Positions 10,239 to 63,585 of a stretch of DNA of 64,000 bases are shown here, piece by piece. The position numbers and the translations under genes are program-made. The stretch is from Tetraselmis striata. Taxonomy: Eukaryota; Chlorophyta; Chlorodendrophyceae; Chlorodendrales; Chlorodendraceae. The notes beneath the pieces were generated by a model, which was not told the DNA's origin, searched no databases, and was given only the letters and a program-made list of their open reading frames with translations. The number at the start of each line of letters is the position of its first letter. Positions within the stretch are counted from its first letter, which is position 1. The stretch spans positions 94,553 to 158,552 of the forward strand of contig VCJN01003541.1 in NCBI GenBank assembly GCA_006384855.1, given 5' to 3'.

Positions 10239-10294
10239 TGATGATCGGGGGGAGGCAGCGCAGAACGTTCTGCGCTGCCTCCCCCCGATCATCA
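10239..10294. repeat. 56-bp perfect palindrome
   Basis: Two 28-base arms with no spacer, centred between 10266 and 10267 (CAGAAC|GTTCTG). The outer arms read TGATGATCGGGGGGAGGCAG. All 28 pairs match. It has no counterpart in the L2 unit. Confidence 0.9.
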
Positions 10295-11172
10295 GCGGCA
10301 TTTCGAGCCGCACCCGTCCCCAATTGGCCACTGCCCACTGCCACTTGACCCACCCCTGCCGCCACTACCCGCTACCCGCTGATGCATGATATTTGTTATG
10401 TCCTCTCGTGGCACGTAGGATGGTAGTTCCGCTCGCGCTTTGCGGCACCAACGGGGGTCGGCCGATAAGGGTGCCCGCGCCTCCGGTTTCCTAGACGCTT
10501 ATCTCTAGACGCTTTTCCCTAGACGCTTAGGGTCGAAGGATAGAAGACGCTTGCGTAACGCGTGACGCAGCAAATACTGCGATATGATTGGCTCCGAAGT
10601 TTACGCTCTCAGCTAAATCGATCACCCAATTTACCTGAGAGGATAGAAGACGCTCGTGCGACTCCCTGTCACGCGTCACGCGGGCCGGGGGTTCCGTGCT
10701 ACCGCGACCCGGTCAACAGCGGCATTGCGAGCCGAATCCACCCCCGATTGGCCACTGCCCACTGCCACCTGACTCACCCCCGCCGCCGCTACCCGTTACT
10801 CGCTGATACAGGGTAGTCACTATGTCCTCTTGTGGCACAGGGGATGGTAGTTCCGCACGCGCGTAGCGGCACCAACGGCTGTCGGCCGAGAAGGGTGCCC
10901 GCGCCTCCGGTTCCCTAGACGCTGATCCTCGCCCCCTGTCCTCTCAGTTCACCGCCGCCTAGACGCAGCATACGACCCGGCAAACCCGGGGGCGCGCGGC
11001 GAGGGTACTACGGGTGGGGTCATACTGCCCGATCATGGCGGCGGTGGCTGTGGATCTTGCGCATTGTGCGACGCAAAGCCGCGCCGCGGGGTCATACAGG
11101 CGTTACGCGTAACGTTTTTTTTGGGACTTTTTCCATTTCGAATTTTGCCCAAAAAAGTATCCGTTACGGTTT

Positions 11173-59100: not shown

Positions 59101-61272
59101 TAAATAGCGATGTGGTCGACATATGTACGCGGGCCACATTCCGCCCATATGGAGGGATACATATCGGGGCTATCGGCTGTAGCGGGTACTTCTGCGACTC
59201 GCGACGGCGCGACGTCAACGCACATGAATTATAAAGCATTTCTCAGCTGCACCGTCTTACATGGTTTCGGAGCAGCAGGAACTGTACATGCTCCGAAACC
59301 AAAATAATCGTCGCTATTTCTTATTAATGTTATCATTTTAATTATATGCTGCCACTTTATTTATTCAAACTACGAGCAGTCGAAACTCGCCCCAGATATA
59401 CTATCCCACAATACTCTCCCTAAACTCCTGACCGCGAGCAAATCCATTGCGGTATGCGACATGCAATCTGGCAGCCCAAGGAGCGCCTCCAGCGGGTAGT
59501 GGGGCGCGTCTGATATGGCGCCTCCATCATGCCGGCAGGCGGACGACCCAGCGGCCGGCTGGAACATGTACCGCGGCCTGGCGCCTGTGGTGAAGGCGGC
59601 GCTCACGGCGGCGCTGTACCCGCATGTGGCGGTGATGGACGAGTCGGCCGGCAGCTCGCGGCGCCCCTCGTGGCAGGACGGCGGGCAGGAGGTGGCGCTG
59701 CACCCGCAGTCCGTCAACCACATGCTGGACGCCTCCGCCTTCCTGCGCCCGTACGTGGTCTACCTTGAGAAGGTGCGCCCACCCGCCCGCCACGCCACAC
59801 ACCACCCAACAGGAGCAGTGCAGTACTGGAAAGAGTGTGCCATCCGAGCGCTGACGTGCCTGTGGGCGGCCGCAGATGCGCACCACCCGCGTGTTCCTGC
59901 GCGACGTGAGCGTGGTCAGCCCCATGGCGCTGCTGCTGTTTGGGGGAGAGCTGCAGGTCCCCCCCCGCCCCCCCCCCCCAGCCAACCTCCACCGCCACGT
60001 TTTCGTGGCTACCTACATGCCATCAACCATGCTCCGATCTTGCCATCCTATCACTAAGCTAATGGAGCATAATACTGCGTTTGTATAAGGTGGTGATTGG
60101 CGGCGGTAATGTGTCCACTTTAGTCATCAGCAACCGATGGAGAAGTCGGCTCTTGCCCTTGCTCAAAAGGGTGGTTCATTGCAGAGAGGGCCGGCAGCGT
60201 GTCGGGGTCGACGTCGGTACCGGGGTACCCCTCATAGGAGGCGCCGTCCGTGTCACACACACGACATGGCTGTGGTGGACCGTCTGGCGTCGCTGATGCA
60301 GGGACACACACATCAACATCAATGTCGGGGTCGACGTCGGTACCGGGGTACCCCTCATAGGAGGCGCCGTCCGTGTCACGCACACGACATGGCTGTGGTG
60401 GACCGTCTGGCGTCGCTGATGCAGGGACACACACATCAACATCAATGTCGGGGTCGACGTCGGTACCGGGGTACCCCTCATAGGAGGCGCCGTCCGTGTC
60501 ACGCACACGACATGGCTGTGGTGGACCGTCTGGCGTCGCTGATGCAGGGACACACACGTCAACGCGTTGAGGGCTTTTGTGGTTCGAAGCAAATACCGAT
60601 GCAAATGCGGCCACTCACCTCGCGCATCAACGGGTGTATGTGGCTAGGGGTGCTGACGCACTCATAAGAACCCCTATTATAGGCCCTCGGGTTGGGTTTG
60701 CGTGTAACCTATAAGAATGTTCGCGATCGTTCCGCCATAGGTTGATCTGCGTTTGACTTCTGGCAGGCAGGGTACTTCTCGTTCGCAGGTTTCTAAGTAC
60801 CGCATCGGCGCCCACACACTAGTACACTCTTAGCGGCTTTTATTAGCGGATTTTAATGAGTCGCTGAATCCTTACTAGGGGTGGACTTGTTGGTACTCGC
60901 CCTTTTGTAGTTCACACGAGCAGACGCGTGCAGATGCGACGTGGCTGCGATCCTGCGCGTCATCGTAGCTGAGACGTCCCCCGTCTGATGTTCTCGCGTT
61001 CTCACACCTGGTGACTCCTCCGCGGCCGGCTGCCCCGCGTTGCGCAGGTGTCGCACGAGGGCGGCTATGTGCAGATGGGCGGCTGGATCCGGGTGCGCGC
61101 CAGCGCGCAGACGGCGGTGCTGGTGAAGAAGGCGCGCGGCGCGCTGCAGGCCATGCTGCAGAAGCACATCGGCCGCGCGCGCGGCGACCGCTCCGCCACG
61201 GACGCGGAGGTGCGCTCCGCCATCGTGACGCTGCTGGTGGACGAGGAGAAGGAGCGCCTGCGCAGCGCCTAG
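38212..61272 (+). CDS. DHX29/DExH7-type DExH-box ATP-dependent RNA helicase
   Basis: Animal DHX29 unwinds structured 5' UTRs on the 40S subunit; the plant relatives are less known. 28 exons, about 1536 aa: 38212-38466, 38826-38994, 39079-39209, 39304-39519, 40090-40152, 40305-40334, 40495-40650, 40972-41037, 41135-41452, 43157-43384, 43616-43793, 44296-44379, 44653-44772, 44882-44934, 45255-45402, 45985-46296, 47194-47262, 47681-47850, 48052-48123, 49255-49454, 50076-50216, 56559-56710, 57119-57413, 58040-58225, 58695-58954, 59539-59772, 59876-59956, 61048-61272. Seen: a UBA-like segment ([19 protein letters not shown]); acidic linkers; a dsRBD-like region ([20 protein letters not shown]); motifs [53 protein letters not shown] and QRAGRAGRV; winged-helix/ratchet [19 protein letters not shown]; and an OB fold ending EEKERLRSA. 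All junctions agree in phase except a +1 base inside exon 11, and intron 24 is GC-AG. Confidence 0.9.
41453..43156 (+). other. Helicase intron 9 (1.7 kb)
   Basis: Begins with a C-run at about 41465 and holds a G-run near 41687-41702, an AT-rich block (42180-42780) and a family C TIR element. No exon-like sequence found. Confidence 0.6.
42771..42919. mobile_element. Intronic MITE family C, copy in helicase intron 9
   Basis: Begins GGTGCCGACGCAC and ends GCGTCGGCACC. Shares CCTATAAGAGCATTCG-like and GGCAGG(T/G)TCTCATTCGC-like segments with the copies near 56312 and 60649. Confidence 0.6.
46297..47193 (+). other. Helicase intron 16 with AT-rich microsatellite
   Basis: 46450-46920 is dominated by TATATGTA/TATCTATA-type repeats. 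No coding exon recognised. Confidence 0.6.
50844..52066 (-). CDS. TIM21/COA1-like single-span membrane protein, nested antisense in the helicase gene
   Basis: Four exons with agreeing phases: 52066-51951, 51630-51541, 51436-51352 and 51059-50844, 168 aa. Seen: an N-terminal hydrophobic segment (about 9-34, [20 protein letters not shown]), a short helix with [15 protein letters not shown], then a beta-rich part [47 protein letters not shown] and [14 protein letters not shown]. It ends in an acidic Glu/Gly/Cys tail ([12 protein letters not shown]). One membrane span followed by a domain whose strands carry a conserved GP and a Trp/Leu-rich last hairpin is the layout of the TIM21/COA1 (DUF1783-like) superfamily of mitochondrial import or respiratory-assembly proteins. 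That assignment is from pattern only. Gene structure is more certain than function. Introns have C-runs on the gene strand, as in the other genes. Confidence 0.65.
53591..55339 (+). CDS. Major facilitator superfamily transporter, SV2/SVOP-like, intronless and nested in the helicase intron
   Basis: A single 582-codon frame. An in-frame TAG lies directly before the ATG (53588-53590), fixing the upstream limit. The N-terminus (about 70 residues) is Gly/Pro/Ala-rich and cytosolic. About 12 hydrophobic segments follow. MFS signature A is present as [12 protein letters not shown] after the second segment, and [14 protein letters not shown] marks the central loop as in the sugar-porter/SV2/SVOP group. 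A Pro/Ser-rich loop (about 290-310) separates the halves, and the C-terminal tail is acidic ([15 protein letters not shown]). Substrate cannot be told from sequence; organic ions or small metabolites are typical of the group. The lack of introns, where neighbours average one per about 150 bp of coding sequence, suggests retroposition (inference). Confidence 0.88.
   Translation: MATPKQRGDTEGASTSGRQAAAASDGTCSATAAVQPMPGFGRQPPPGAPGPPPAAGDDGDGTGDMEELIDSYGYTWLHGFLFAFLALAGLAPAKEMVTLSLLGPALACHFGLPLGAEGALQAAAFGGALLAGPFYGYLADAAGRKPTIALACLAIALPSAATALAPSFPAAVALRFLVGLGLPFDPVMFTYYLEFLPDGSRGSQVVALTLAWAAGLALEAGVAWAAFTLTPDWRAFALASAAPSILAALLAPLLPESPFFLADRGRSAAAHSVVSRLAAAAGAEPPPPPPPDEAASDSSRPSGPGCCASAVGLPLRGVGEVLAALCSRCGRAWKTIGLTIFTAGLAAATIGLVELSVLLHAVPPLGSSTTGGAQGAVGLDAAVVAGMPSPLYGFVGRTDAGSAALCDPAGGLSLGPRGWEQLLLANLSAMWGVLLACGVIDCLGRRASLGVMLAVSALAASAMLIPGLSLPAANAFLVLARTAAHGGYPILAVYVGDLYAGHLRGFGESLAETSTSLSYMLAPLAVDLLTSQLGLAAAVIAVAGALWLGLVALLLTPGQPSAEEIEEEGAADNAAAGDTTAN
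55872..56188. repeat. (CT)n and (CA)n microsatellites
   Basis: CT runs at 55880-55902 and 56122-56168, followed by CA repeats to 56188, in helicase intron 21. Confidence 0.85.
56312..56480. mobile_element. Intronic MITE family C, degenerate copy in helicase intron 21
   Basis: Begins GGTGCCGGCGCAC. Shares AAGCCTCAAAT(C/T)GGGC with the copy at 42771 and CTGGCAGGCAGGG with the copy at 60649. The right end is eroded. Confidence 0.45.
58226..58694 (+). other. Helicase intron 24, probable GC-AG intron
   Basis: The phase of the next exon (GC TCG GGC) requires a cut after GCCGCTG at 58225, giving a GC donor (GCACGT). The nearby GT (58230) is in the wrong phase. The intron carries a C-run after the donor and many GGCCGAC/TGGTCGA motifs (58290-58450). 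Confidence 0.5.
59257..59302. repeat. Intronic hairpin
   Basis: GGTTTCGGAGCA and its exact complement TGCTCCGAAACC separated by about 14 bases, in helicase intron 25. Confidence 0.7.
60201..60569. repeat. Minisatellite, three copies of a 123-bp unit
   Basis: Units start at 60201, 60324 and 60447, nearly identical, each with GTCGGGGTCGACGTCGGTAC, CGACATGGCTGTGGTGGACC and GATGCAGGGACACACAC. The third unit diverges at its end. The unit is 41 codons long, so frames stay open on both strands, but it lies within helicase intron 27 and shows no exon signals. Confidence 0.9.
60649..60812. mobile_element. Intronic MITE family C, copy in helicase intron 27
   Basis: Begins GGTGCTGACGCACTCATAAG and ends CGCATCGGCGCC. 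Shares CCTATAAGAATGTTCG-like and TCGTTCGCAGG-like segments with the other copies. Confidence 0.5.
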
Positions 61273-62069: not shown

Positions 62070-62172
62070 GGGGCCCAGGGCGCTGCGGGGGAGGGTGGTC
62101 AGCGGTGGCCGGCTCCGCTCGTCGGCGGTTTGCCTCGCCACGCGTCATTTTCCCCTCCACACGCGCGCCCCA
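62070..62172 (-). ncRNA. Candidate SECIS element in the 3' UTR of the SelU-like gene
   Basis: On the minus strand, starting about 70 nt after the stop codon, the sequence has the kink-turn core ATGA (62148-62145) and TGA (62101-62099), an AAA bulge 13 nt after ATGA, and supporting helices. The lower helix is GGAGGG with CCCTCC, plus GGGCGC with GCGCCC further out. Helix II is GCG/CGC, TGGC/GCCA and GGC/GCC. Above the AAA bulge is a mini-stem CCGC/GCGG closing a six-base loop (CGACGA). The mini-stem above the adenosines is the form-2 SECIS layout. Its function would be Sec insertion at the in-frame TGA of the gene just upstream. Folding was done by hand. Confidence 0.7.
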
Positions 62173-62219: not shown

Positions 62220-63585
62220 CTACGCCAGGTCCGTGATGGCCATGCTCAGCACGTCGTCCAGGTCCGCGTGCGCGCCGGTGGACTTGTCGTAGTGCGAGTA
62301 CAGGCACTCCTCGCCCTGGAAGATGAGCAGCCCGCCTGTGGGGGCGCAGCGGCCGGGAAGGACGCTGTGAGCATGCGCGAGGCGGACGCAGCAGCGCCGC
62401 CAGGCGGTGTCGCAGGTCTGTTTGGTGTTTTTAACTGGTATCTAGGCCGCGCCAAGACAGTGCCCCCCTCCCCCTCCTTGCTCTCCCAATGCTGGGTGGC
62501 ATTCCCTGGTACCTTGCTGCAGGCCCTGCTCCAGCTTGGGCGGGATCCAGGGCTTCCAGCGCGGCAGGATCTGCTTGAGGTCCTGCGCGCCGTCCTTCAG
62601 CAGGCGCTGGTTGATGCTCAGCGGCGTGTCCGCGGTGAAGAAGGTGCGGCCCAGGCCGCGGTAGAAGCCCATCGCGTCGTACGTCACGTTGTCGGGGTCC
62701 GCGAAGATGTGCTGCGCGCCCAGCCCCGTCTCCTCCGCAAACATGCGGCCGCGCTCCGCGGTGCCGATCGAGATGAACACCAGTTTCACGCCCGCCTCCT
62801 CCAGCCTCGGCAAAACTTCTCTTGAGAGCTGCTGCGCCAGCTCCCTGGGGCCGCGGCGGGGGTTAGTAGGGGGGCAAGGGTGAGCGAATCCCTGCAGCCG
62901 CCACGCAATGCTCCCCTGAAGCTCGAAGCAGGTCATCATGTGAACTGGCGAGCAGGCCCTGCTCAGCGGATGGGGGCGCTCACCAACAGAAGAATCAGCC
63001 GAAGCTTCGGCCGAACACGAGCAACGCGCGCTCGTCCTCCTCCCACAGCGCGGTGGTCTGCACGCTGGTGCCGTCCACGGCGCGCAGGATGGTGGTGCCG
63101 CTCAGCCGCTCGTACGGGCTCTTCTCATCGCTGCCCAGCCACGGCACAGCCACGCGCAGCAGGTCAGTGGGCTGGGGGAGGGGGCCGAGTCGGGCTGTAC
63201 TCGTAATTGTGGGGTGCTCGGGTTCACTGGGAGGTTTGGGGGCTTCACGGTAAGCTGGATTTAATTCAAGAGCCGAGACCTAATCAGACACCTTCGGCGG
63301 GGTTGACAAGAAGCGGACCGGCGGAGCACCTGCCAGGGCCCTCGTCAGCAGGCACACGGGCGCGAGGCGTGAGCCGGCTACCGGTCCGCAGGTGCTTTGC
63401 CACGCGCTGCGGGCGCGGCGACAAAAGAGCGCGGCCCACGGGGCTGACGAGAGTGGAGCTGCGCGCGGAACGAGCGACGGGGCGGGGGCGCACGCCGACA
63501 CGGCTAGCGCCCGGCGGCGGTGCAGACCGCGCGGCGGTGGCGTGCGCGGCGGCAAACATAGCAACGGGTGCTCAGTTGTCCCCAC
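62220..63585 (-). CDS. Selenoprotein U-like (SelU/PRXL2C/AAED1) thioredoxin-fold protein with in-frame TGA (Sec)
   Basis: An AhpC/TSA-related redox protein family, in algae and plants often plastid-targeted. Exons with agreeing phases: 63585-63292, 63171-62984, 62844-62513 and 62335-62220, 309 aa if TGA is read. Seen: a long transit-like N-terminus, then WLGSDEKSPYERLSG, EEDERALLVFGRSFG, the codon TGA at 62997-62995, then FFCWELAQQLSREVLPRLEE, AGVKLVFISIG, HIFADPDNVTYDAMGFYRGL, GRTFFTADTP and LQQGGLLIFQGEECLYSHYD, ending DDVLSMAITDLA. TGA falls at the family's redox Cys, making U157-F-F-C160. Homology continues in frame after it and spans two further introns, so it is not a real stop. A SECIS candidate follows the gene. 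Exon 1 is less certain: a second overlapping frame (starting MFAAAHATAARS at 63559) is also transit-like but is out of phase with exon 2. Confidence 0.88.
62995..62997 (-). promoter_or_regulatory. Probable UGA-selenocysteine recoding site
   Basis: The codon sequence GGC TGA TTC TTC TGT TG|G is followed immediately by a GTGAGC donor, so this TGA lies 11 nt upstream of an exon end. Translation as Sec restores the UxxC redox motif of the family. Confidence 0.8.

Follow-up and report, generated by a model that had tools for sequence, protein, structure and literature searches.

In a Tetraselmis-like green alga, a nuclear gene carries a TGA triplet (positions 62997-62995, minus strand) that is very probably read as selenocysteine (Sec); the gene would thus encode the Sec form of selenoprotein U (SelU). 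At the level of sequence this reading is supported by the open frame, the family match, the position of the TGA at a redox cysteine, a SECIS-like hairpin, genes for tRNA-Sec and eEFSec, and further selenoprotein genes in the same assembly. These sequences make it very probable that several genes in this genome use selenocysteine.

Gene structure and reading frame

The stretch of DNA that was analysed, here called the window, comprises 64,000 nucleotides (C2848:94553-158552). The SelU gene is located on its minus strand, near the end of the contig, which terminates at position 158552. The gene was divided into the following features.

63292..63559, minus strand: putative exon 1, starting with ATG 63559; obtained by frame enumeration, 3' end provisional
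62984..63171, minus strand: exon 2, 5' border 63171 or 63194; ends ...FGRSFG-TGA-FFC-W, donor GTGAGC
62995..62997, minus strand: predicted Sec codon TGA, first position of the UxxC (CxxC) motif
62513..62844, minus strand: exon 3, ELAQQL...QGLQQ; the preceding intron ends CCCCAG, the next intron starts GTACCA
62220..62335, minus strand: exon 4, TAG stop at 62222-62220; the database protein P0001 spans the exon 3-exon 4 join unbroken

The TGA lies in frame within exon 2, exactly where the sequence-only reading had placed it, 11 bases 5' of the exon 2 donor. The joined reading runs ...LLVFGRSFG-TGA-FFCW / ELAQQL...QGLQQ / GGLLIF...ITDLA-TAG, and both introns have GT/AG borders. At the splice between exons 2 and 3, TTCTGTTG/GTGAGC...CCCCAG/GGAGCTG, the phase is kept and the join gives C-W-E-L-A, in agreement with the proposal that the parts before and after the TGA belong to one protein. 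With exons 2-4 joined, the reading frame passes through the TGA and continues to the C-terminus of the family; the TGA, a standard stop codon, is the sole stop within this frame. The joined 211 aa matched AhpC-TSA_2 (PF13911) with an E-value of 4.1e-20 and 72.7 bits (cut-off 27) and just reached the cut-off of AhpC-TSA.

The four-exon model that had been proposed was confirmed in part: exons 2, 3 and 4 join in frame, but the junction between exons 1 and 2 fits many donor/acceptor pairs, all of which keep the frame from ATG 63559. Similarly, the claim that a standard pipeline would cut the product at 156 aa fits donor 63292 with acceptor 63194, which places 155 aa ahead of the TGA; the pyrimidine-rich acceptor 63171, judged by eye, is at least as plausible as 63194. 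The N-terminal extension encoded by exon 1 is rich in Arg, Ser and Ala and, by eye, resembles an organelle transit peptide.

Elsewhere in the window, a 123-base unit occurs in three tandem copies that are 99% alike (60200-60563), and a tRNA-Phe (GAA) is encoded on the minus strand at 10248-10338.

Relatives and a second genomic copy

A single database search, whose method detects only proteins of comparable length with short words in common with the query, yielded 101 relatives, named among others peroxiredoxin-like 2C, seleno protein U and AAED1. At the column of the TGA, 24 of these carry Cys, including Coccomyxa, Monoraphidium (named seleno protein U), land-plant AAED1 and most of the named land plants, two carry Trp (P0029 and P0037) and one, from the land plant Dillenia, has a gap. 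Both the CxxC motif expected for the family at this point and the Cys form expected for land plants were thus recovered. In the remaining 74 relatives the alignment begins downstream of the site. Seventeen of these 74 (17 of all 101) start with MFC exactly one residue past the TGA site, presumably where gene callers took the Sec codon as a stop, as judged from the protein sequences rather than from the relatives' DNA. In nine of the 74, 4 to 41 unaligned residues precede the first aligned residue, so that an alignment beginning after the site need not reflect a start codon there. The same truncation that standard pipelines would impose on the Tetraselmis gene by ending it at the TGA, and that is corrected in our gene model, therefore seems to affect many database relatives.

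The closest relative, P0001, shows 99% identity over 62% of the query. At one site it shares a Ser with a second genomic copy of the gene, where the window has Pro. Since P0001 spans the exon 3-exon 4 join and shares this Ser, it probably derives from a spliced transcript of the second copy or of a close relative.

This second copy, on C1994, is collinear and diverged, with 94.9% and 96.5% identity over pieces of 3.6 and 2.4 kb; it is the other haplotype or arose by a recent duplication. It keeps both the TGA and the donor GTGAGC after it. The sequence-only reading had named TGC or TGT at this codon as one result that would speak against Sec; because the second copy likewise has TGA, a base-call error is unlikely, though the copy does not amount to independent reads of the window locus. 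Substitutions between the copies, counted without gap columns, numbered 2/268 in exon 1, 4/211 in exon 2 (counted from 63194), 1/332 in exon 3, 0/116 in exon 4 and 15/413 in the introns. Exons 3-4 taken together (1/448) thus vary less than the introns (p 1.5e-4), which argues for selection on the frame downstream of the TGA. The SECIS region was unchanged (0/76), compared with 19/222 across the remainder of the aligned 3' UTR (p 0.005). Both p-values are from Fisher tests, which assume independent sites.

These data bear on whether the TGA could be a true stop and the locus a decaying Cys-type gene or pseudogene. Nothing direct speaks for this apart from the fact that the sole in-frame stop is a standard stop codon. 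However, the TGA falls precisely on the redox-Cys column and is kept in both copies, the frame behind it changes less than the introns, a SECIS-like hairpin is present downstream, and a database protein, P0001, continues across the exon 3-exon 4 join. Decay of the gene is therefore very improbable. We give an equally small chance to a main product from which the TGA is spliced out, leaving a Sec-less and probably inactive isoform. The distance of only 11 bases between the TGA and the exon 2 donor would be in line with such an isoform, as would P0095, a relative listed without the CxxC; yet both copies conserve the GTGAGC donor that follows the TGA, and skipping would cost the protein its active site.

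A SECIS-like hairpin and the selenocysteine machinery

Recoding of the TGA as Sec would require a SECIS element in the transcript, and a candidate is present downstream of the coding region.

62086..62161, minus strand: predicted SECIS element, type II form; identified by pattern and fold, unchanged between the copies

The hairpin begins at base 72 past the stop codon, in the 3' UTR. It contains ATGA (62148-62145), 13 bases, an unpaired AAA (62131-62129), a mini-stem and the quartet-closing TGA (62101-62099), above a lower helix of GGAGGG/CCCTCC. A scan modelled on the published pattern, as given in PMC2375036, found no match on the plus strand of the window and one on the minus strand, the SelU hairpin. 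The scan rules were set after the element had been seen, hence the odds within the window are flattering. When the 320-base 3' UTR was shuffled, 5 of 3000 sequences matched. Applied unchanged to both strands of 38 loci (143,467 bases), the scan matched only eight SelU loci, which are overlapping stretches from both copies, and three loci for glutathione peroxidase-type (GPX) genes, L028, L029 and L037, all of which have TGA at the Sec position. Searches against Rfam gave no SECIS, either over the entire window at gathering score or, with E-values allowed up to 10, over its last 3 kb. The 91-nt fold is only modestly stable relative to shuffled sequences (z -1.61; 12 of 200 shuffles as good).

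Further genes with TGA at a Sec position were found in the assembly. Ten GPX loci were fetched, and the Sec position of the NVAS motif is occupied by TGA in six and by Cys in four.

L028 (C872), L029 (C1507): GPX with NVASA-TGA-GAT; SECIS-like hairpin downstream
L033 (C988), L034 (C2403), L035 (C1236): GPX; NVAS motif with TGA in the Sec position
L037 (C1792): GPX; NVAS motif with TGA in the Sec position; SECIS-like hairpin downstream
L030, L031, L032, L036: GPX with Cys; L031 and L032 are one gene
L038 (C2071:28534-28713): SelW-like frame YCGG-TGA-GF (CxxU)

The SECIS scan found no hairpin at the TGA-bearing GPX loci L033, L034 and L035, and none in the 1.5 kb downstream of the SelW-like frame. 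Taken together, the SelU hairpin and the GPX and SelW genes in which TGA occupies the known Sec position support the view that this genome keeps the Sec form.

That the genome also keeps the Sec machinery was examined in part, and two components, tRNA-Sec and eEFSec, were found. Two tRNA-Sec genes with anticodon TCA scored above the Rfam family cut-off. This family reaches an E-value of 0.001 in 14 of 14 control genomes, and the call is therefore based on cut-off and anticodon. The other four of the six matches are weak and correspond to tRNA-Ser and tRNA-Leu. The elongation factor eEFSec is encoded on C994. Its gene appeared as a weak row (41.9 bits) in a selB-family search and was picked out by eye; compared with PDB proteins it scored 111.5 bits against eEFSec and 53.4 against the next family, archaeal SelB, confirming the assignment. 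In the selB-family search of the assembly no match reached the family cut-off; the family reaches an E-value of 0.001 in 14 of 14 control genomes.

Apart from L020, which was read on one strand and given no assignment, the best selB-family matches were ruled out as eEFSec by reading their translations. L018 is plastid tufA, backed by a database match to a Tetraselmis protein. From their sequences we take L019 to be bacterial tuf/fusA, L021 cysNC, L022 infB and L023 typA, while C1986 is presumably eIF2-gamma and C604 presumably EF-1A. L013, a 36% match, was examined by reading alone. Five contig pairs carried selB-family matches of equal score (C604/C2644, C653/C2172, C2156/C696, C1127/C869, C1707/C2637), which points either to haplotypes left uncollapsed or to a recent duplication.

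Plastid tufA on C1177 is identical over its length (100%) to a protein of an unclassified Tetraselmis (class Chlorodendrophyceae). The plastid contig and the window presumably come from the same cell, although bacterial-looking contigs are also present in the assembly (C1131, C1807, C1804 and C145, with tuf/fusA, cysNC, infB and typA, named by eye). The culture was hence probably not axenic.

Decoding of the TGA as another residue such as Trp, through a changed code or ordinary readthrough, would agree with the Trp at this site in P0029 and P0037 and is the least credible alternative, given that in-match TGA is rare and located at Sec positions (rows with in-match TGA: 0 of 30 in the selB family, 2 of 11 for GPX, 1 of 1 for SelW), that tRNA-Sec and eEFSec are present, and that the two Trp residues are most simply explained as the way a gene caller writes TGA. 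One further row of the 11 in the GPX search has TAA, and the exon 2 rows of the genome search show two TGA triplets because the match extends into the intron (GG TGA GC).

Under the Sec reading, tRNA-Sec(UCA) would be brought by eEFSec to the UGA at 62997-62995, and Sec delivery would be guided by the 3'-UTR hairpin, which follows the UGA by about 530 nt in the mRNA. The product would fall within the AhpC/TSA thioredoxin-fold family, in its PRXL2/AAED1-like part, and would be a small oxidoreductase whose UxxC active site is of the selenenylsulfide/thiol type. Through its N-terminal extension SelU may be sent to the plastid or the mitochondrion.

Comparison with known selenoproteins and Cys homologues

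A Sec branch of SelU in algae, assumed by the sequence-only reading, is documented: PMC7539508 reports that, of 36 algal genomes, more than half have Sec-containing SELENOU, and PMC2375036 lists SelU in two Ostreococcus species and in Thalassiosira. As far as the two papers describe them, the algal proteins are likewise thioredoxin-fold redox proteins with a Sec codon, and lineage is the only apparent difference from the Tetraselmis gene. The main text of PMC7539508 does not mention Tetraselmis, and among the papers listed by a literature search on Tetraselmis selenoproteins none concerns this gene, as judged by title or abstract start. Since SelU is already known in algae, the kind of gene is known and only the lineage may be new. 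A Sec-form SelU in a green alga is expected biology, and the result is solid.

The Cys homologues differ at the decisive residue. Land-plant thioredoxin-like protein AAED1, chloroplastic (34-39% identity) and the probable peroxiredoxin-like 2C of Coccomyxa (45-48% identity) belong to the same family and have the motif in the same column, but carry Cys where the Tetraselmis SelU is predicted to have Sec. It is conceivable, if somewhat doubtful, that this nuclear gene encodes a selenoprotein imported into the plastid as the Sec counterpart of the land-plant Cys protein AAED1, chloroplastic, and that no SelU has been described before for the Chlorodendrophyceae. More distant is prostamide/prostaglandin F synthase (PDB 9us9), a Cys form matched by sequence with an E-value of 1.8e-6; its CxxC aligns with UFFC, and there is no sign of a shared substrate. 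Within the same assembly, the Sec-type GPX and SelW genes belong to other protein families but likewise have TGA at the known Sec position, and at three of the Sec-type GPX loci the scan that matched the SelU hairpin also matched one.
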